A DNA stretch of 64,000 nucleotides from Prochlorothrix hollandica PCC 9006 = CALU 1027 (GTDB lineage Bacteria > Cyanobacteriota > Cyanobacteriia > Prochlorotrichales > Prochlorotrichaceae): NCBI RefSeq assembly GCF_000332315.1, contig NZ_KB235941.1, forward strand, positions 1,145,956 through 1,209,955. The letters are read 5' to 3'. Below the pieces are notes generated by a model. The model made no database searches. It saw only the letters and a list, made by a program, of their open reading frames with translations, and was not told where the DNA came from. Positions 6,771 to 61,293 of the stretch are shown piece by piece. The position numbers were made by a program, and so were the translations under genes. How positions within the stretch are numbered: the first letter of the stretch is position 1; each line of letters begins with the position of its first letter.

Positions 6771-8762
6771 TTAACGCACATCCAAACGGTAGGGGAGGCG
6801 GCTGTAGGCATGGCGGGGGTCATCCAGTTGCAACAGTAACGACCAATCATCCCCCAAATCCTGCACCAAACCCGCCACAGGGGGCGATAGGGGACGGGAG
6901 CCGGCGCTGATGGACCCAGCCAGACCCTTAGCACCAAGCCAAGGGGACAACACCGCCGAACCTCCCAAATTACCGATCGTACCAAAGGGGGGCAGATGGT
7001 CCAGAATCGTCCAGGGGCTGGGACTGCCGGGGTCCAAATTCCTTAAACCCTGGCCTGAGTTCCCTGGGGATTGAACCCCCACCCCCCCCAGATCACTGAA
7101 CAATTGATCCAGCACCGCCTTCTCCAAACTGGGTTGGGGGGGATACTCATCCACCGTCCAATCATCCCCCACCTTTGCCGCCGTTGCTGCCGCCTCTAGG
7201 GCCATATCCAGCCCCCCCAACTGATCCACTAGTTTCAGCCTTAGGGCCGCTGTACCCGACCAAACCCGACCCTGGGCCAGATTTTCCACCTCAGCAGGGG
7301 GCAGAGAGCGCCCATCGGCTACTAGGGTGATAAAACGATCGTAAACGTCATCAACAAAGCGCTGGAGTAGGGCCAGTTCCTGGGGCGTTTTGGGGCGGGA
7401 CAGGGTGTCGATATTGGCGTAGGGATTGGTGGTCACCGCGTCCCAGGTTACGCCATTATTGTTAGCCACTTGCTGGACATTGGGCAAGAGGCCAAAGACC
7501 CCGATCGATCCGGTGATGGTGGTGGGTTCTGCAAAAATCTGATCCGCTGGGGCGGCGATCCAATAGCCCCCGGATGCAGCCACATCCCCCATGGAGACGA
7601 TGACCGGCTTCACGGCCTTCAGTAATTCCACTTCCCGGCCAATGAGACCCGCTGCGGTGGCGCTGCCCCCAGGGCTGTTGATCCGCAGCACCACGGCTTT
7701 CACCGCTTCATCGCGGCGCAGGTCCCGCAACAGTTCGGTGTAGTCATCACTGGCAATAAACCCCTGATCGGCGGATCCCGTCACCACTTCCCCTTCAGCA
7801 TAGACCAGGGCAATGCGGTTGGGGCTGTCCATGGGGCTAGTCCCCCGGTTCCCCGCCTCCAGATCCAGGGCGTAGTCCGCCAGGGTAACCATGGGGATGT
7901 CTTCTTCTAGATCGGTCGTCCCCGTCAGCGATCGCAACTCAGTTTCCACCTCATTGGCGTATTTCAAACCATCCACCAATCCCTGGGCCTCGGCTTCCTG
8001 GGGCAAGAGCATCCCCTGCTGGTTGGCCACCGCCTGCAATTGCTCCGGTTTGAGGTCCCGACCTGTCGCCACGGTCTCCACAAAGTTCTGCCAGAGATCG
8101 GTAATCAGGGCCAGGTTTTGCTCCCGACTGGGGGCGCTGAATTTGCGATCGAGAAAGGGTTCCACCGCCGACTTATATTTGCCCACCCGCACAATTTGCA
8201 TCCCCACCCCATATTTGGCAAAAGCTCCCCCATAAAACTGGACTTCCGCCCGGAATCCATCCCAGGTCAAATCCCCCAGGGGGTTAATCCACACCGAGTC
8301 CGCTAGGGATGCCAGGTAATATTCCGGTTCGCTCCAGCCGGATCCATAGGCCAGCACCGGTTTGCCCGACTGTTCCTGAAACGCCGCCAGGGCATCCCGA
8401 ATGGCTTGGAGGGAGGCATAGCCCCCCACCCCTGGGGGCAGGTTGTTGCCCACCAGATAGAGACCCACAATGTCGTCATCGGTGGCGGCGGTGTCCAGGG
8501 CTTGGCCCAGGGAGCGCAGGGACAGGGTGGAGAGATCGTCAAAGGCGAAGGTCAGGAAGTCGGGGGGCAGGGGGCGATCGGTAACCAAGGTGGACAGGTC
8601 ATAGACCAGGAGGGTTTTGTCCCCCGAAACCACCACCTCTTCGTCCTGTTGGCCCAGACTGGCGAGGCCAATCATCAGCACTATCAACCCTGCTCCACTG
8701 AGACCTAGAAACAGAAACAGACCAAAAACGGTGGCAAAAACTTGTTTGAAGAAATCACGCAT
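6771..8762 (-). CDS. sppA: Signal peptide peptidase SppA (long, 67K type)
   Basis: A 663-residue membrane serine protease that degrades cleaved signal peptides; in cyanobacteria it is also linked to light acclimation. An N-terminal transmembrane anchor spans ~9-35. Two tandem ClpP-like domains follow. The catalytic lysine of the first domain is in KYKSAVEPF (Lys197) and the serine of the second in GDVAASGGYW (Ser397), so both parts of the Ser/Lys dyad are present. The last ~110 residues are a Gly/Pro/Ser-rich extension. The start at 8762 (MRDFFKQVFA) was chosen because the longer frame adds 56 residues with no homology character ahead of the anchor. It appears to be a single gene. Confidence 0.93.
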   Translation of the reverse strand: MRDFFKQVFATVFGLFLFLGLSGAGLIVLMIGLASLGQQDEEVVVSGDKTLLVYDLSTLVTDRPLPPDFLTFAFDDLSTLSLRSLGQALDTAATDDDIVGLYLVGNNLPPGVGGYASLQAIRDALAAFQEQSGKPVLAYGSGWSEPEYYLASLADSVWINPLGDLTWDGFRAEVQFYGGAFAKYGVGMQIVRVGKYKSAVEPFLDRKFSAPSREQNLALITDLWQNFVETVATGRDLKPEQLQAVANQQGMLLPQEAEAQGLVDGLKYANEVETELRSLTGTTDLEEDIPMVTLADYALDLEAGNRGTSPMDSPNRIALVYAEGEVVTGSADQGFIASDDYTELLRDLRRDEAVKAVVLRINSPGGSATAAGLIGREVELLKAVKPVIVSMGDVAASGGYWIAAPADQIFAEPTTITGSIGVFGLLPNVQQVANNNGVTWDAVTTNPYANIDTLSRPKTPQELALLQRFVDDVYDRFITLVADGRSLPPAEVENLAQGRVWSGTAALRLKLVDQLGGLDMALEAAATAAKVGDDWTVDEYPPQPSLEKAVLDQLFSDLGGVGVQSPGNSGQGLRNLDPGSPSPWTILDHLPPFGTIGNLGGSAVLSPWLGAKGLAGSISAGSRPLSPPVAGLVQDLGDDWSLLLQLDDPRHAYSRLPYRLDVR

Positions 8763-50553: not shown

Positions 50554-52098
50554 TTAGCCGCGAATGACGACGATCGATCTCCCCCCCGGACTCACGGCGC
50601 TTTCCGTCGTGGTGCGATCCTCTAGGGGCGGTAAACCCGGACGGCGATCGAAAATAACCAACCATCCGGTTTCTAGTCCCAACCCTGCCAAATATTTATC
50701 GATTTGCTCCAATCCCTTCCCCACTGGATCTGGTTTCCCCTCCCGCCACACCTTAAGTTCCATGCCCAGCGTCACCCCCCCGTACCGCAAACACACATCC
50801 ATTCTGCCGGATCCGATCGCATACTCCCGCTCCAAACTGCCGCCCCCGTTCACCACCCGGTGCAAAAATGCCATCAGCACCAAATGGGGCGCAATTTCAT
50901 GGTAAGGCGCACTTTTGAACAGGGGTTCCCCATGTTGCCGCCAAAACTCTAGAAAAGCCTCTAAAAGCTGATGGGGATTGAGGCTATGATCCGCATTGAG
51001 CCAACTGGGTTGGATTTGGGGCAAGCTGTCCTGACTGCCTTGGGATAGTACCCGAGGCAAGACCTCTTTGTAGATGGGATTGGCAATGATCAAGCCACCC
51101 AAGGGACTCCGTTTGACTAAGCCTAAATCCAAGAGAAAGCGACGATCGTCATCTGGAACATCGGGTAAATCTTGACCCGCTAAAATAGGTTCAATAATCT
51201 GTTTGACTCTGTTTTCCCGCAGTCGTTCGGCAAGACTATCCAGGTGTGTGTCCTGACGCTGAATTAGGATTTCTTTGGCTTGTTCAATGACCCCGATCGT
51301 AATCGGTTGGGTCACGTCTTCCACTAAAAATTCGGTGGCCTGACGGGCCAAGGCATTCACCAACCAGGGCTGACCATCGGTGAGGTAAAAGGCATGGCGT
51401 ACTGCTTCTGGCGTGAAAATCTGGCCTGTGGACTCAGTATGCTGCTGATAAAGGCTCTGAACATCCTCAAACGTGAAATTTTCTAGGGTTAAGGACGCTA
51501 CTTTGATATTAAAGGGACTGGACGTATTCAGTTTGTCACTGCCGCCGGATTTAACTTTATAGTCCCGCACATCCCGCATCCCAATTAAGCCGAGGGAGTA
51601 GGGAAAGCCCTGGGGACGGCGGGGATAGCCGTCGCGTAGTTGTCGTAGAACCGAGATCAGAGTTTGGTTTTGGAGGGAGTCGATTTCATCAATGAAGATA
51701 ACAAGAGGACGAGGTGAAATTTTCGCCCATTGCTTGAGGAACGTACTAATATTCTGACCTTCTTCTCGATCGAAGGTGGGATGTAATTCTTCAGGGAGCC
51801 AAATATCAATGGCATCTTGCCAGGATCTAAGAATGGCGACTTCAGCCTTGTCAGGTTGCTCGGGGAAGGCGGCTCCCACCTCTACAGAGACCATGACAGC
51901 GGTGTATTGCTCGCTTTCGGTCAGTTCCTGGGCGAGGGCAATCATAGCCGTGGTTTTGCCCACTTGGCGGGGGGCATGGATCACGAAGTAGTTGCGTTGG
52001 TCAATGAGGCGACACAGTTCCGGGAGGCGGGCTGTGGGCGACAGCATGTAGTGAATGTCAGCTTGGCAAGGACCGGCGGTGTTGAACCATTTGGGCAT
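50554..52098 (-). CDS. AAA+ ATPase fused to PD-(D/E)XK-like nuclease domain, paralog 1
   Basis: 514 residues. Conserved start MPKWFNTAGPCQADIHYMLS. Walker A HAPRQVGKTTAM (~41-52), Walker B PLVIFIDEIDSL (~130-141). An arginine-rich sensor region includes RDVRDYKVKSGG. A middle helical and winged-helix-like region follows, then a C-terminal domain with GSGRMDVCLRYGG and LGMELKVWREGK, fitting a D...ExK nuclease core. The family is common in cyanobacteria and anaerobes, and its function is unknown. Its three paralogs lie at 56432-61293. Residues ~75-125 and ~300-385 differ from the other copies, while the ends are nearly identical. Confidence 0.85.
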   Translation of the reverse strand: MPKWFNTAGPCQADIHYMLSPTARLPELCRLIDQRNYFVIHAPRQVGKTTAMIALAQELTESEQYTAVMVSVEVGAAFPEQPDKAEVAILRSWQDAIDIWLPEELHPTFDREEGQNISTFLKQWAKISPRPLVIFIDEIDSLQNQTLISVLRQLRDGYPRRPQGFPYSLGLIGMRDVRDYKVKSGGSDKLNTSSPFNIKVASLTLENFTFEDVQSLYQQHTESTGQIFTPEAVRHAFYLTDGQPWLVNALARQATEFLVEDVTQPITIGVIEQAKEILIQRQDTHLDSLAERLRENRVKQIIEPILAGQDLPDVPDDDRRFLLDLGLVKRSPLGGLIIANPIYKEVLPRVLSQGSQDSLPQIQPSWLNADHSLNPHQLLEAFLEFWRQHGEPLFKSAPYHEIAPHLVLMAFLHRVVNGGGSLEREYAIGSGRMDVCLRYGGVTLGMELKVWREGKPDPVGKGLEQIDKYLAGLGLETGWLVIFDRRPGLPPLEDRTTTESAVSPGGRSIVVIRG

Positions 52099-53404: not shown

Positions 53405-55285
53405 ATGAACCCCAAGCCCGCAACCCAACCGATCAAGATTCTCCAGCGCACCTATCATTTGCCAGTGCTGACGGGGGATAGCCTGAAGCAACTGCAAGCC
53501 AGCATCCAAAACCGCCAGCAAGCGATCCGCACGGGCGAGGAAATTGTGGTCGTGCAGGTGCAGCAACAGGAGCAAGTCCCAGGCGGTCTGCTGGGACTGG
53601 GGCGCAAGACGGTGACTCGGACCATACGCCAACGCCAGCGCAAGCCCTTGGATATGCAGCAGCGGTTTCAGTATTTGGAGGCCCAGATTCGGGATTATGA
53701 TGTCTTGTTGCGGCTGCTGAAACAGCATCGGGTTGCCTATCAGCGCTTTTTTCTGGATCTGTCCAAGGAAGTGCAGCAGTTAATTGAGACAAAATGCCAG
53801 CAAATGGCAGCTTTGGAGGCAAAGCGGCAGCAAATTGAGACCCAAGCCCAGGCCAAGGGCAATCAGGGGTTGCTGGCAATGACCCTGAGCCAAAAGCGCC
53901 AGGTGATTGATAGCTTGCTGATGTTGGATAAGGCGGCGGTGCTGATGCTGAAGAAGGTTAGCCTGATTAGTGAGGGCATTGCTAAGCTGACCCAGGACAG
54001 TGAGCTATCGAAGCAGGTGCTGGAAAATATGATGGCAGAACTGCGGGACTATCGGGAAGCCATAGTCCTTCAGCGAGAGCTAGACGCGCTCCAGCAGGAA
54101 ATTACCCAGTTTACCCAGGTGGCTCTGGATTTGGAGCATTATTTACAGCAGTATTTGGGTCCGTTCCAGGCATTGATTGAGGATGCGGCCCAGGTGGATG
54201 GACAGTTGGCCCAGACGGTGGAGGAGATTCGCAACTTGGCGGAGGATTTGATGGGGGCACAGGGGGGCTGGTTTGATGTGGCGGGGGCGGAGCAACTGAC
54301 GGAGAGCTTGCTGACGCTGGAGGTGGCGCGAATCCAGAAGCAGGAGCGGCTGGGGGATGCCCTGGAGATGGCGGGACGGGAGCGGCTGACGGGGCAGTTC
54401 CGGGCGGCGAATCTGTCGGATCGGGCGGTGGCGGCGGTGGAGATTGGGGAGCAGATCGCGGCGATCCAGGGCCATGTGCAGCGGCAGTTGGTGGGGTTGC
54501 AGGGGACGATGACGGTGGAGATTGAGGCGGAAATCGAGGCGGATCCGGATTTAGGGGCCGGGTTTTATGGCCTGTCTGCTACAAGTGAGCCGATTACCTT
54601 TGAATTGCCAAAACAGGGTGGCACCCTGGAGTTAGTGCCGGTTCCGGCGGGGGAGTTGGTGATGGTGAAGGGAAGCCATCGGGTCCAGGTGCCGGAGTTC
54701 TCTATGGGGAAATTCCCGGTGACCCAGCGCCAGTATCAGGCAATAATAGGCCAAAATCCATCGAAGTTTGGTGATAATCCAGAGCATCCGGTCGAAACAG
54801 TGACCTGGCACCAAGCCATGGCGTTTTGCCGGAAGTTGACCAAATTACTCCAGCTTACGGACCAGGTGATAACGCTACCCAGCGAGACGATGTGGGAGTG
54901 GGCGGCACGGGAGGCGGAGAACAGCAGCTTGACCTATGCGGTCAGTAATGATCTGGATCAGGTGGGCTGGTATAAGGAGAACTCCAGTCGAACAACGCAT
55001 CCGGTGGGGCAGAAAGATGCGAATAAGTTAGGGATTCATGACATGAGCGGCAATGTCTGGGAGTGGTGTCAGGATAATTGGGCTAGTAGTACAAATGAAC
55101 TATCTCAGGATGGCAAACCTCTGTTAAAGGGGGGTGATAACACCCTGCGCGCCGTTCGTGGGGGTTCCTGGTTCGACTACGCAGTCATTTGCAGTTCTGG
55201 GAATCGCGACTTCTACGATCCGGGCTGCAGCTACGGCAACCAAGGTTTTCGTGTTGTTTTGCTGCCGGTTGGTTTTGTGCCCTGA
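53405..55285 (+). CDS. Coiled-coil protein with C-terminal formylglycine-enzyme (CLec) fold; candidate DGR target
   Basis: 626 residues. Residues ~1-395 are helical coiled coil (LQQEITQFTQVALDLEHYLQ). Residues ~405-626 form the FGE-sulfatase/C-type-lectin-like domain: GTLELVPVPAGELVM, MGKFPVTQRQYQA, LPSETMWEWAARE, GIHDMSGNVWEW, AVRGGSWFD and QGFRVVLLP. The catalytic cysteines of true formylglycine enzymes are absent, so it is a binding fold. Codons 590-613 are almost all NNY and mostly NNC: the pattern of a diversity-generating retroelement variable region. ATG at 53405 preferred; the frame to 53186 overlaps the transporter gene. No reverse transcriptase is in the window. Confidence 0.85.
   Translation: MNPKPATQPIKILQRTYHLPVLTGDSLKQLQASIQNRQQAIRTGEEIVVVQVQQQEQVPGGLLGLGRKTVTRTIRQRQRKPLDMQQRFQYLEAQIRDYDVLLRLLKQHRVAYQRFFLDLSKEVQQLIETKCQQMAALEAKRQQIETQAQAKGNQGLLAMTLSQKRQVIDSLLMLDKAAVLMLKKVSLISEGIAKLTQDSELSKQVLENMMAELRDYREAIVLQRELDALQQEITQFTQVALDLEHYLQQYLGPFQALIEDAAQVDGQLAQTVEEIRNLAEDLMGAQGGWFDVAGAEQLTESLLTLEVARIQKQERLGDALEMAGRERLTGQFRAANLSDRAVAAVEIGEQIAAIQGHVQRQLVGLQGTMTVEIEAEIEADPDLGAGFYGLSATSEPITFELPKQGGTLELVPVPAGELVMVKGSHRVQVPEFSMGKFPVTQRQYQAIIGQNPSKFGDNPEHPVETVTWHQAMAFCRKLTKLLQLTDQVITLPSETMWEWAAREAENSSLTYAVSNDLDQVGWYKENSSRTTHPVGQKDANKLGIHDMSGNVWEWCQDNWASSTNELSQDGKPLLKGGDNTLRAVRGGSWFDYAVICSSGNRDFYDPGCSYGNQGFRVVLLPVGFVP
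55155..55265 (+). other. Candidate DGR variable region (VR)
   Basis: Between conserved GTGGGGGTTCCTGG and GGTTTTCGTGTTGT, 20 of 24 codons (55172-55243) end in C or T and 15 end in C (TTC, GAC, TAC, GTC, TGC and others). A template with AAC codons mutated at the first two bases gives this pattern. A pyrimidine tract and a GGCGC-GGA-GCGCC hairpin (55362-55374) follow, as in downstream regions of known DGR targets. The template repeat was not found in the window. Confidence 0.65.
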
Positions 55286-55517
55286 GGACTTCTTTACACT
55301 TTTTAACTTTCACCTTTACACTTTTTCTTTTTTATTTTCTTTTCTTTTCTTTACCCCTCTTGGCGCGGAGCGCCGAAAATTTTTTTCATTAAATTGTCGC
55401 TATAACGGCAGCAGCACAGCCCTGCGGTTTTGGATTCGCGGTGGTTGGCATCCGCCCAGTTCCGACCCAATTTTCCCAGCAGAATAGTCCCAAAGCAGTT
55501 CCAAGAACACCAAACCC
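55286..55517. other. Intergenic pyrimidine tract and hairpin after the candidate VR
   Basis: A T/C-rich stretch (55290-55355) leads into the hairpin at 55362-55374. I see no template repeat and no gene before the Uma2 start. Confidence 0.6.
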
Positions 55518-56431: not shown

Positions 56432-57982
56432 TTAGGCCCGAATAACGACGATCGATCGCCCCCCCGGACTCACGGCGCTTTCAGTGGTGGTGCGATCCTC
56501 TAGGGGTGGTAAACCCGGACGGCGATCGAAAATAACCAACCATCCCGTTTCTAGCCCTAATCCCGCCAAATACTTATCGATTTGCTCTAATCCCTTCCCC
56601 ATTGGATCCGGTTTCCCCTCCCGCCACACCTTTAGTTCCATGCCCAGCGTTACCCCCCCGTACCGCAAACACACATCCATTCTGCCGGATCCGATCGCAT
56701 ACTCCCGCTCCAAACTGCCGCCCCCATTCACCACTCGGTGCAAAAACGCCATCAGCACCAAATGGGGCGCGATTTCATGGTAAGGCGCACTTTTGAACAG
56801 GGGTTCCCCATGTTGCCGCCAAAACTCTAGAAAAGCCTCTAATAACTGATCGGGTAGCAGTTCACCCGCCGCATTGAGCCAGCGAGGTTCGATCGCACCG
56901 ATCGAAGTCCGAGTCGTATAGCTCAGCACCAAGGGCACAACTTCTCGATAAATGGGATTGGCCACTTCGATCCCCCGACCGTTGTTATCGCGGCACAGAC
57001 CCAAATCCAGGACATAGCGAATGTCATCGGGGGGAACATCGGGTAAATCATTTCCGGCTAAAATCGGTTCTATCACGGTTCTCACGCGAGGTTCCCGTAG
57101 CCGCTCCGCTAAACTATCTAAATGCGTGTCTTGACGCTGAATTAGAATGTCTTTGGCTTGTTCAATGACCCCGATCGTGATCGGTTGGGTCACCTCTTCC
57201 ACTAAAAATTCGGTGGCCTGACGGGCCAAGGCATTCACCAACCAGGGCTGTCCATCGGTGAGGTAAAAGGCATGTTGAATCGCTTCCGGGGTGAAAATCT
57301 GGCCCGTGGCCTCGGTATGCTGGTGATAAAGAGTTTTTACATCATCAAAGCTAAAGTTTTTGAGGGTTAGGGACTCTACCTTAATGTTAAAGGGGCTAGA
57401 TGTATTCAGTCTGTCACTGCCACCGGATTTAATTTTATAGTCCCGCACATCCCGCATCCCAATTAAGCCTAAAGAGTGGGGAAAGCCCTGGGGTCGGTTG
57501 GGGTAGCCCGATCGTAACTGCCGCAGAACAAAGACGAGGGTTTCCTCGCTAAGGGCATCCACTTCATCGAGAAAGATCGCCAGCGGTTGTTGAGCTGTCG
57601 CCGCCCAACTACTCAGAAATGTGCTGATTTGGGCGCTACTGTCCGGTATAGGCCATTCGGTGGGCCGGAGGTTTTCCGGCAGACGAAAACGCAGGGATTG
57701 CTGCCATTCACTTAAAATGACTCGCTCAGCCTGCTGCGGATCATGGGAGAAGCTTGCCCCCACTTCCAAAGACAACATCACCGCCACATAGTCGCCGCTT
57801 GCGGTCAGTTCCTGGGCCAGGGCAATCATGGCCGTGGTTTTGCCCACTTGGCGGGGGGCATGGATCACAAAGTAGTTGCGTTGGTCAATAAGACGATGCA
57901 GTTCTGGGAGGCGGACTGTCGGAGACAGCATATAGTGGATATCGGCTTGGCAGGGACCTGCGGTGTTGAACCATTTGGGCAT
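56432..57982 (-). CDS. AAA+ ATPase/PD-(D/E)XK-like nuclease, paralog 2
   Basis: 516 residues, same architecture as paralog 1: HAPRQVGKTTAM, LAIFLDEVDALS, GSGRMDVCLRYGG, LGMELKVWREGK. Its first variable segment (ASFSHDPQQAERVILSEWQQ ... RPTEWP) is shared with paralog 4, whereas its second (~300-385; VLDLGLCRDNNGRGIEVANP) is identical to paralog 3. The C-terminal 120 residues are almost the same in all copies. This mosaic indicates recombination among the copies. Its start lies 112 bases from the stop of paralog 3, so a tandem read-through order 4-3-2 is possible. Confidence 0.85.
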   Translation of the reverse strand: MPKWFNTAGPCQADIHYMLSPTVRLPELHRLIDQRNYFVIHAPRQVGKTTAMIALAQELTASGDYVAVMLSLEVGASFSHDPQQAERVILSEWQQSLRFRLPENLRPTEWPIPDSSAQISTFLSSWAATAQQPLAIFLDEVDALSEETLVFVLRQLRSGYPNRPQGFPHSLGLIGMRDVRDYKIKSGGSDRLNTSSPFNIKVESLTLKNFSFDDVKTLYHQHTEATGQIFTPEAIQHAFYLTDGQPWLVNALARQATEFLVEEVTQPITIGVIEQAKDILIQRQDTHLDSLAERLREPRVRTVIEPILAGNDLPDVPPDDIRYVLDLGLCRDNNGRGIEVANPIYREVVPLVLSYTTRTSIGAIEPRWLNAAGELLPDQLLEAFLEFWRQHGEPLFKSAPYHEIAPHLVLMAFLHRVVNGGGSLEREYAIGSGRMDVCLRYGGVTLGMELKVWREGKPDPMGKGLEQIDKYLAGLGLETGWLVIFDRRPGLPPLEDRTTTESAVSPGGRSIVVIRA

Positions 57983-58094: not shown

Positions 58095-59645
58095 CTAGCC
58101 GCGAATGACGACGATCGATCGCCCCCCCGGACTTACGGCACTTTCCGTCGTGGTGCGCTCCTCTAGGGGCGGTAAACCCGGACGGCGATCGAAAATTACT
58201 AACCATCCGGTTTCTAGCCCTAATCCCGCCAAATACTTATCGATTTGCTCTAATCCCTTCCCCACTGGATCCGGTTTCCCCTCCCGCCACACCTTCAGTT
58301 CCATGCCCAGCGTTACCCCCCCGTACCGCAAACACACATCCATTCTGCCGGACCCGATCGCATACTCCCGCTCCAAACTGCCGCCCCCATTCACCACTCG
58401 GTGCAAAAATGCCATCAGCACCAAATGGGGCGCAATTTCATGGTAAGGCGCACTTTTGAACAGGGGTTCCCCATGTTGCCGCCAAAACTCTAGAAAAGCC
58501 TCTAATAACTGATCGGGTAGCAGTTCACCCGCCGCATTGAGCCAGCGAGGTTCGATCGCACCGATCGAAGTCCGAGTCGTATAGCTCAGCACCAAGGGCA
58601 CAACTTCTCGATAAATGGGATTGGCCACTTCGATCCCCCGACCGTTGTTATCGCGGCACAGACCCAAATCCAGGACATAGCGAATGTCATCGGGGGGCAC
58701 ATCGGGTAAATCATTTCCGGCTAAAATCGGTTCTATCACGGTTCTCACGCGAGGTTCCCGTAGCCGTTCCGCCAAACTATCTAAATGCGTGTCTTGGCGC
58801 TGAATTAGAATGTCTTTGGCTTGTTCAATGACCCCGATCGTGATCGGTTGAGTCACCTCTTCCACGAGGAACTCTGTCGCTTGACGGGCCAAGGCATTTA
58901 CCAACCAGGGTTGTCCATCGGTGAGGTAAAAGGCGTGTTGAATCGCTTCTGGGGTGAAAATCTGGCCCGTGGCCTCGGTATGCTGGTGATAAAGAGTTTT
59001 TACATCATCAAAGCTAAAGTTTTTGAGAGTTAGGGATTCTACCTTAATGTTAAAGGGGCTAGATGTATTCAGTCTGTCACTGCCACCGGATTTAATTTTA
59101 TAGTCCCGCACATCCCGCATCCCAATTAAGCCTAAAGAGTGGGGAAATCCCTGGGGTCGGCGGGGGTAACCAGACCGCAGTTGTCTAAGCAGAGAGAGCA
59201 GGGTGGCATCCGTGAGCGCATCCACTTCATCCAGGAACACAACTAAAGGACGGGGTAGGGTTTGGGTCCAAGTCGTTAGTGCTGCCCCAATGCGGCGACC
59301 TGCCTCTGCTTCTGGCCACTGGGGAGGATGTAACTCCGGGGGCAGGTAAGCCCGAGCCGAGTCCTGCCACTCATTGAGGATAGCTAGTTCAGCGGTACCT
59401 GGATCGGCTGAAAAGGGTGCCCCCACTTCCAAAGACAGCATCACAGCGCCATAGTCGCCGCTTGTGGTCAGTTCCTGGGCCAGGGCAATCATGGCCGTGG
59501 TTTTGCCCACTTGGCGGGGGGCATGGATCACAAAGTAGTTGCGTTGGTCAATAAGACGACGCAGTTCTGGGAGGCGGACTGTCGGAGACAGCATATAGTG
59601 GATATCGGCTTGGCAGGGACCTGCGGTGTTGAACCATTTGGGCAT
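58095..59645 (-). CDS. AAA+ ATPase/PD-(D/E)XK-like nuclease, paralog 3
   Basis: 516 residues, all motifs as in paralog 2. The first variable segment is its own (APFSADPGTAELAILNEWQD ... PPELHPPQWP; Walker B PLVVFLDEVDALTDATL). From the conserved RQLRSGYP region to the C-terminus it is virtually identical to paralog 2, including the second variable segment. It therefore looks like a hybrid of two sequence lineages or a recent conversion product. Member of the three-gene tandem array. Confidence 0.85.
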   Translation of the reverse strand: MPKWFNTAGPCQADIHYMLSPTVRLPELRRLIDQRNYFVIHAPRQVGKTTAMIALAQELTTSGDYGAVMLSLEVGAPFSADPGTAELAILNEWQDSARAYLPPELHPPQWPEAEAGRRIGAALTTWTQTLPRPLVVFLDEVDALTDATLLSLLRQLRSGYPRRPQGFPHSLGLIGMRDVRDYKIKSGGSDRLNTSSPFNIKVESLTLKNFSFDDVKTLYHQHTEATGQIFTPEAIQHAFYLTDGQPWLVNALARQATEFLVEEVTQPITIGVIEQAKDILIQRQDTHLDSLAERLREPRVRTVIEPILAGNDLPDVPPDDIRYVLDLGLCRDNNGRGIEVANPIYREVVPLVLSYTTRTSIGAIEPRWLNAAGELLPDQLLEAFLEFWRQHGEPLFKSAPYHEIAPHLVLMAFLHRVVNGGGSLEREYAIGSGRMDVCLRYGGVTLGMELKVWREGKPDPVGKGLEQIDKYLAGLGLETGWLVIFDRRPGLPPLEERTTTESAVSPGGRSIVVIRG

Positions 59646-59745: not shown

Positions 59746-61293
59746 CTAGCCACGAATGACAACGATCGATCGCCCCCCCGGACTCACGGCGCTTTCAGTG
59801 GTGGTGCGATCCTCTAGGGGTGGTAAACCCGGACGGCGATCGAAAATAACCAACCATCCCGTTTCTAGCCCTAATCCCGCTAAATACTTATCGATTTGCT
59901 CTAATCCCTTCCCCAATGGATCCGGTTTCCCCTCCCGCCACACCTTCAGTTCCATGCCCAGCGTCACTCCCCCGTACCGCAAACACATATCCATTCTGCC
60001 GGATCCGATCGCATACTCCCGCTCCAAACTGCCGCCCCCGTTCACCACTCGGTGCAAAAATGCCATCAGTACCAAATGGGGCGCAATCTCGTGATAGTCA
60101 AAGTTTTGCAGTAAGGGCTGGCCATGTTGCCGCCAAAAGCCCAAAAAGGCTGAAAGTAACTGCTCAGGACGCAATTCTCCTGTTTCCGAGAGCCAGGTGG
60201 GTTGTACATATCCCAAGCCCACCGTTGTGGATGCGGCCAGACACCGGGGCAGCACCTCTCGATAAATGGGGTTGGCAATGTCCAAGACTCCCCGTTTGTT
60301 GGAGCATAAGCCGAGGTCCAAAACATACTGAATATCATCCCAGGGTGGGTTATTGAGTTCTTGACTAGCCAGAATCGGCTCAATGACTCGTTTCACTCTC
60401 GCTTCCTGGAGGCGTTCCACCAGACTATCCAGATGGGTGTCCTGGCGTTGAATTAAAATCTCTTTCGCTTGTTCGATGACCCCGATCGTGATCGGTTGAG
60501 TCACCTCTTCCACTAAAAATTCGGTGGCCTGACGGGCCAAGGCATTCACGAGCCAGGGTTGTCCATCGGTGAGGTAAAAGGCGTGTTGAATCGCTTCTGG
60601 GGTGAAAATCTGGCCCGTGGCCTCGGTATGCTGGTGATAAAGAGTTTTTACATCATCAAAGCTAAAGTTTTTGAGAGTTAGGGACTCTACCTTAATGTTA
60701 AAGGGGCTAGATGTATTCAGTCTGTCACTGCCACCGGATTTAATTTTATAGTCCCGCACATCCCGCATCCCAATTAAGCCTAAAGAGTGGGGAAATCCCT
60801 GGGGACGGTTGGGGTAGCCCGATCGCAACTGCCGCAGAACAAAGACCAGGGTTTCCTCACTAAGGGCATCCACTTCATCGAGAAAGATCACCAGCGGTTG
60901 TTGAGCTGTCGCCGCCCAACTACTCAGCAATGTGCTGATTTGGGCGCTACTGTCCGGTGCAGGCCATTCGCTGGGCTGGAGGTTTTCCGGCAGACGAAAA
61001 CGCAGGGATTGCTGCCATTCACTTAAAATGACTCGCCCAGCCTGCTGCGGATCATGGGGGAAGCTTGCCCCCACTTCCAAGGACAACATCGCCGCCACAT
61101 AGTCGCCGCTTGCGGTTAGTTCCTGGGCCAGGGCAAGCATGGCCGTGGTTTTGCCCACTTGGCGGGGGGCATGGATGACGAAGTAGTTTTGCTGGTCAAT
61201 GAGGCGACGCAGTTCTGGCAGGCGGACTGTCGGAGACAGCATGTAGTGGATGTCGGATTTACAAGGGCCAGCGGTGTTGAACCATTTGGGCAT
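59746..61293 (-). CDS. AAA+ ATPase/PD-(D/E)XK-like nuclease, paralog 4
   Basis: 515 residues; Walker A, DEVD Walker B and D...ExK are intact (GSGRMDMCLRYGG has Met for Val). The first variable segment is the paralog-2 type (SFPHDPQQAGRVILSEWQQ). The second is unique: SLVERLQEARVKRVIEPILA, LCSNKRGVLDIANPIYRE, FWRQHGQPLLQNFDYHE, replacing the common EPLFKSAPYHE. First gene of the minus-strand array. It is followed upstream by the conserved GTATCCTAGG motif and then the half copy of the 103-bp element. Confidence 0.85.
   Translation of the reverse strand: MPKWFNTAGPCKSDIHYMLSPTVRLPELRRLIDQQNYFVIHAPRQVGKTTAMLALAQELTASGDYVAAMLSLEVGASFPHDPQQAGRVILSEWQQSLRFRLPENLQPSEWPAPDSSAQISTLLSSWAATAQQPLVIFLDEVDALSEETLVFVLRQLRSGYPNRPQGFPHSLGLIGMRDVRDYKIKSGGSDRLNTSSPFNIKVESLTLKNFSFDDVKTLYHQHTEATGQIFTPEAIQHAFYLTDGQPWLVNALARQATEFLVEEVTQPITIGVIEQAKEILIQRQDTHLDSLVERLQEARVKRVIEPILASQELNNPPWDDIQYVLDLGLCSNKRGVLDIANPIYREVLPRCLAASTTVGLGYVQPTWLSETGELRPEQLLSAFLGFWRQHGQPLLQNFDYHEIAPHLVLMAFLHRVVNGGGSLEREYAIGSGRMDMCLRYGGVTLGMELKVWREGKPDPLGKGLEQIDKYLAGLGLETGWLVIFDRRPGLPPLEDRTTTESAVSPGGRSIVVIRG

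Follow-up and report, generated by a model that had tools for sequence, protein, structure and literature searches.

Diversity-generating retroelements (DGRs) can act on genes that lie far from their reverse transcriptase (RT), and 76 such remote targets have been recorded in 21 cyanobacterial genomes (PMC7517822). The available part of the account of Thiohalocapsa PB-PSB1 describes trans DGRs whose variable regions (VRs) match a distant template (TR) at all non-adenine sites, as well as incomplete DGR loci, and considers that the RT and/or the TR may be encoded elsewhere; the donor there is another locus of the same genome (PMC10907252). The mechanism has been dissected in BPP-1, where the RT and Avd are recruited by the spacer RNA and an internal adenine acts as the primer for cDNA synthesis (PMC12875486). 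In that system a TR-RNA placed outside the operon under its own promoter still supports retrohoming (PMC12875486).

The target described here lies in a 64-kb stretch of the Prochlorothrix genome (G000, 13 contigs; the stretch, C9:1145956-1209955, is referred to as the window). It resembles the published remote cyanobacterial variable proteins in being a target with a C-type-lectin (CLec) end, far from the RT and with its template elsewhere. Those remote targets are, however, tied to the template of the DGR cassette (PMC7517822), whereas the template matching the window gene, termed TR2, is itself remote from the RT and unlike that of the cassette. The exact match of VRs to a distant TR at non-adenine sites and the incompleteness of the loci are shared with Thiohalocapsa PB-PSB1, but the available part of that text does not describe a free-standing template that carries its own DGR RNA and serves several targets (PMC10907252). 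As in BPP-1, the template lies outside the operon, although there the separation was engineered on a plasmid (PMC12875486) and here it is natural and spans contigs. Since the BPP-1 TR-RNA works outside its operon, the precedent makes use of TR2 in trans more plausible without demonstrating it. Remote targets and diversification in trans have already been published; a free-standing template split from its RT was not found in the open-licence literature, and we regard it as a new variant.

Target gene and variable region

The CLec organization, with RGGSW and GFRVV near the C-terminus, had been proposed from the window alone. Both motifs were located, at nt 55157 and 55244, in a region that matches the FGE-sulfatase family (Table 1), and among solved structures the C-terminal part is closest in sequence to 2y3c, the variable protein of a Treponema denticola DGR (E=5e-28). 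Together, the family and 2y3c matches indicate that this part of the protein probably adopts a CLec fold, and the VR forms the 3' end of the gene and reaches the stop codon. The codon counts on which the original prediction relied are exact: of the 24 codons between the two motifs, 15 have C and 20 have C or T as third base, whereas the remainder of the gene reaches 18% and 36%. Relatives of the target in the scanned reference genomes are distant FGE proteins only, with 29-41% identity. A long coiled coil ahead of the CLec domain had also been predicted and could be checked only weakly; long helices do appear at residues 84-390 in a low-confidence, single-sequence AlphaFold model (mean pLDDT 39.5), but a test for heptad periodicity in the protein was not significant. 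The varied CLec domain may be the sensor end of a helical protein, recognizing a ligand or an antigen, and the available part of one study proposes that the varied CLec domains of clade 5 DGRs are antigen sensors of conflict systems (PMC10907252).

Table 1. Features of the target gene and of the sequence that follows it (window coordinates)
Feature	Position	Strand	Remarks	Basis
DGR target gene	53405..55285	+	626 aa; helix-rich N-terminal part (~aa 84-390), C-terminal FGE/C-type-lectin domain	ORF
FGE-sulfatase/CLec domain PF03781	54668..55258	+	aa 422-618, E=1.3e-38	hmmscan
DGR variable region (VR)	55148..55286	+	no difference from TR2 outside template adenines	
Span of the 15 substituted adenine positions in the VR	55172..55236	+	none at third codon position	
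AGGACT, base pattern marking recipients (VRs)	55285..55290	+	templates AG[C/T]ACT here; TR2 AGTACT	
Pyrimidine-rich tract 3' of VR	55291..55361	+	similar tracts after VRs L007 and L008, not L004	
GC hairpin GGCGC-GGA-GCGCC, then T run	55362..55374	+	candidate target-recognition hairpin or plain terminator	

Searching the genome with window positions 55145-55290 returned five other places. One of them, C4:225514-225656, is the predicted adenine-bearing near-copy: its variable positions hold AAC or AAT, nine times in its core, and it constitutes TR2. Relative to TR2, the window VR is changed at 15 of 32 adenines and at none of 107 other bases (Fisher p=1.2e-11); the substituted positions are 55172, 55173, 55175, 55178, 55185, 55188, 55208, 55212, 55214, 55217, 55226, 55227, 55232, 55235 and 55236. 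The 250 bp directly 5' of the VR share only 67-79% identity with TR2 or with the other targets. The DGR-type variable region of the original prediction is therefore confirmed, its true extent being 55148-55286. Paralogous FGE-domain genes are plentiful, with 19 such places in the genome, and the pattern might in principle reflect ordinary paralogues shaped by codon bias or gene conversion with no DGR involved. We consider this highly improbable, because the differences are confined to template adenines, with p values down to 1e-11, and because the adenine-rich copy has a DGR RNA attached to it and differs from its recipients in a polarity base.

This polarity base was examined in TR/VR pairs located near DGR RNAs in other cyanobacteria. 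Of 34 rows, 29 have a template that ends in AGCACT or AGTACT and 23 a target that ends in AGGACT, with AGG at the start of most other target endings; the 34 rows include one shifted duplicate of its neighbour (L055 at 1892). The endings in the window and in TR2 conform to this usage, so that target and template can be told apart independently of their adenine counts.

The pyrimidine tract and the GC hairpin expected after the stop codon are both present. The hairpin is weak evidence, as its 5-bp stem and 3-nt loop, ~75 bp after the VR (fold z=-2.07), also read as a terminator. The hairpin or cruciform 3' of the VR in phage DGRs has a stem of 7-10 bp and a 4-nt GRNA loop (PMC3240598). A hairpin similar to that of the window follows the VR of L008 (z=-3.10), and none was seen after the sister VR L004.

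The surroundings of the gene contain four near-identical genes for AAA-type ATPases of ~515 aa, all on the minus strand (50554-52098, 56432-57982, 58095-59645 and 59746-61293), whose ends are nearly identical and whose middles have diverged; the first matches AAA_35. A gene of the Uma2 family (PF05685; 55518-56213, plus strand) lies directly 3' of the target gene.

The orphan template TR2 and its recipients

The remaining four places found by the genome search are probable further recipients of TR2, with three distinct sequences distributed over C4, C12 and C1. All of these paralogous targets repeat the adenine pattern of the window. L004 (C4:219989) differs from TR2 at 10 of 32 adenines and at no other base, and the identical pair L006 and L007 (C12:83406 and C1:1488322) at 13 of 32 adenines and at no other base. 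L008 (C1:650388-650530) is changed at 14 of 32 adenines and at four other bases. These four changes are all G to T, unlike anything in the other VRs. Over the four distinct VRs, adenine was replaced by T 32 times, by G 18 times and by C twice, never at a third codon position. The domains ahead of the shared CLec end differ among the targets, being helix-rich in the window protein and TPR in L007.

Among the window, L004, L007 and TR2, the non-adenine bases are identical at 107 of 107 sites, whereas the 250 bp upstream are only 67-87% identical. A block that is uniform except at template adenines and is bounded by diverged flanks points to copying from a template and not to descent. The template itself is not preceded by the usual leader. 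Over the 297 bp before it, the sequence shares 96% identity with the 3' end of the target gene located at a distance of 5.5 kb, and TR2 thus sits in a target-gene remnant.

One reverse transcriptase and two templates

The original prediction noted no RT near the target, and none is present in the 64-kb window. It also held that an RT should exist elsewhere in the genome, and the sole DGR RT was found at C9:101797-102882, on the same contig as the target (C9:1201103) and ~1.1 Mb from it. Its frame is open over 362 aa and contains a YVDD motif. An Avd gene, open over its full length, lies directly upstream (NF033474, E=9e-40; also PF22296). A PF00078 match at C6:68409 was considered as a second DGR RT and rejected, since the DGR RT query misses its 412-aa frame at cut-offs as loose as E<=1.

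Directly downstream of the C9 RT lies a template, TR1, which two local FGE targets equal at every non-adenine base. The adjacency of TR1 to the only DGR RT and its perfect fit to these local targets would make it the obvious source of the window VR. Of 66 non-adenine sites, however, 25 disagree between TR1 and the window VR, compared with 0 of 59 for TR2, which refutes this reading and leaves it a negligible probability. The expectation that the template would be found beside the RT accordingly failed: the RT has a different template, and that of the window is an orphan on another contig with a DGR RNA of its own. Near TR2, neither an RT nor Avd appears in the open reading frames of ~17 kb upstream and 20 kb downstream, and a profile built from DGR RTs detected no RT. 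At 4-5 kb upstream of TR2 (C4:220.4-221.5 kb) the assembly has two gaps of 100 N, which might conceal an undetected RT, although the genome is 99% complete. Target, template (C4:225514) and RT do not share one locus, and the proposal of an orphan target diversified in trans is supported.

The spacers behind RT-adjacent cyanobacterial templates have a common conserved structure, from which a covariance model, R1, was built using 20 RT-adjacent loci and leaving TR2 out. In 29 of its 42 pairs, one or more sequences carry changes at both partners. R1 has exactly two matches in the Prochlorothrix genome, one behind TR1 (128.7 bits) and one behind TR2 (116.7 bits, E=6e-28). The TR2 RNA keeps 39 of 42 pairs and has 11 compensatory changes relative to the TR1 RNA. 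The identity of the two RNAs is nevertheless only ~61% where bases are paired and 52% where they are not, which tempers the case that the C9 RT uses TR2. The full model of the described family, Rfam RT-14 (RF02921), resembles TR2 (38.5 bits) and the locus L036 (35.3 bits) in sequence and structure, both below its curated gathering score of 48.1, and R1 scores far better; TR1 is not matched by RT-14. In a 60-row RNA tree TR2 fell in a nearly all-orphan clade, a placement that was not upheld with 120 rows. The larger tree does not reject TR1 and TR2 as sisters (AU p=0.47), and hence no origin is claimed for TR2. Orphan states are clustered on it, with 30 changes compared with a mean of 39.6 for shuffled labels.

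We propose that TR2, an adenine-rich template lying in the remnant of a target gene and followed by the complete DGR RNA, would be transcribed into a non-coding RNA and that this RNA would be bound in trans by the RT and Avd encoded on C9. The RT would copy this RNA with errors at adenines, and the cDNA would then replace the VR of the window gene and those of the four other copies on C4, C12 and C1. The window VR was very probably written in this way, in trans from TR2 by the sole DGR RT and Avd of C9, and the genome likely operates one RT with two templates and scattered targets, all in trans. Diversification may still go on at the present day. Alternatively, TR2 might descend from a second complete DGR that wrote the five VRs and then lost its RT, leaving a dead template. 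Loss of the RT with retention of the template does occur, orphan RNAs beside RT fragments being common (18 of 128 DGR RNAs in the scan described below), and the four non-adenine changes in L008 also speak for this history, as does a VR/TR pair in a genome, G288, where a DGR RT was not found. We consider it unlikely. Three distinct VRs on different contigs show no non-adenine change over 107 sites between flanks of 67-87% identity, and the TR2 RNA has kept 39 of 42 pairs, both of which argue for recent or continuing use; moreover, an open RT and Avd are present in the genome.

Orphan DGR RNAs in other cyanobacteria

After removal of three weak matches, a scan of 291 cyanobacterial genomes with R1 left 128 good ones, distributed over 83 genomes. 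Among these DGR RNAs, 54 adjoin an intact DGR RT and 18 an RT fragment, 22 have an intact RT only elsewhere in the genome (a 36-aa RT remnant is present at two of them), and 34 belong to genomes without an intact DGR RT. The 56 of 128 without an adjacent RT are an upper bound, as some orphans lie near contig ends. When 54 orphans were examined, 25 followed an adenine-rich template, 20 lay directly behind an adenine-poor CLec end, mostly in long open frames, and nine had no CLec end. Adenine-poor CLec ends followed by a complete DGR RNA are seen in target genes with open frames of 445-995 aa (L128, L130, L134, L164, L173, L179, L180, L181, L183, L188, L189 and L192). These genes look as if their own mRNA could serve as template and its adenines had been exhausted. 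In G288, the locus L125 (G288:C1:1868000-1885000) contains at 7960-8640 a template and a target that differ at 17 of 29 adenines and at 0 of 86 other bases; the RVT_1 matches of this genome do not match the DGR RT query.

The remote-template arrangement is independently repeated in another species, G128, and is not a one-off. On a 6.4-Mb contig of that genome, an orphan template at 5.58 Mb (L116; C1:5583785-5584059, minus strand), adenine-rich, unmutated and followed by a DGR RNA, lies at a distance of 3.9 Mb from the intact RT (1.66 Mb). In three remote VRs of the genome, 13-15 of 27 adenines and 2-4 of 101 other bases depart from L116, and two of the latter differences are the end bases that distinguish template from target. 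L116 lies within an open caspase-CLec gene (PF00656 and PF03781).

We tentatively suggest, at somewhat less than an even chance, that a cyanobacterial DGR RT commonly serves scattered, free-standing templates. Such templates could arise where the 3' end of a target gene joins a DGR RNA, so that this gene, or what remains of it, also acts as a template for the paralogues, while a self-templating gene would exhaust its adenines. TR2 in its remnant, L116 in its open gene and the 20 adenine-poor target genes would then represent stages of this process. DGR surveys such as DiGReF start from the RT and by default look ±5 kb around it (PMC3521204), and RT-centred surveys of this kind, which cover a few kb, miss free templates and their targets. 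The combination of an adenine-rich block with a DGR RNA and the polarity of AG[C/T]ACT versus AGGACT provides a descriptor that permits RT-independent searches. If the templates do function in trans, several separate programmes of diversification can depend on a single RT, and more genes undergo directed hypermutation than current counts suggest.
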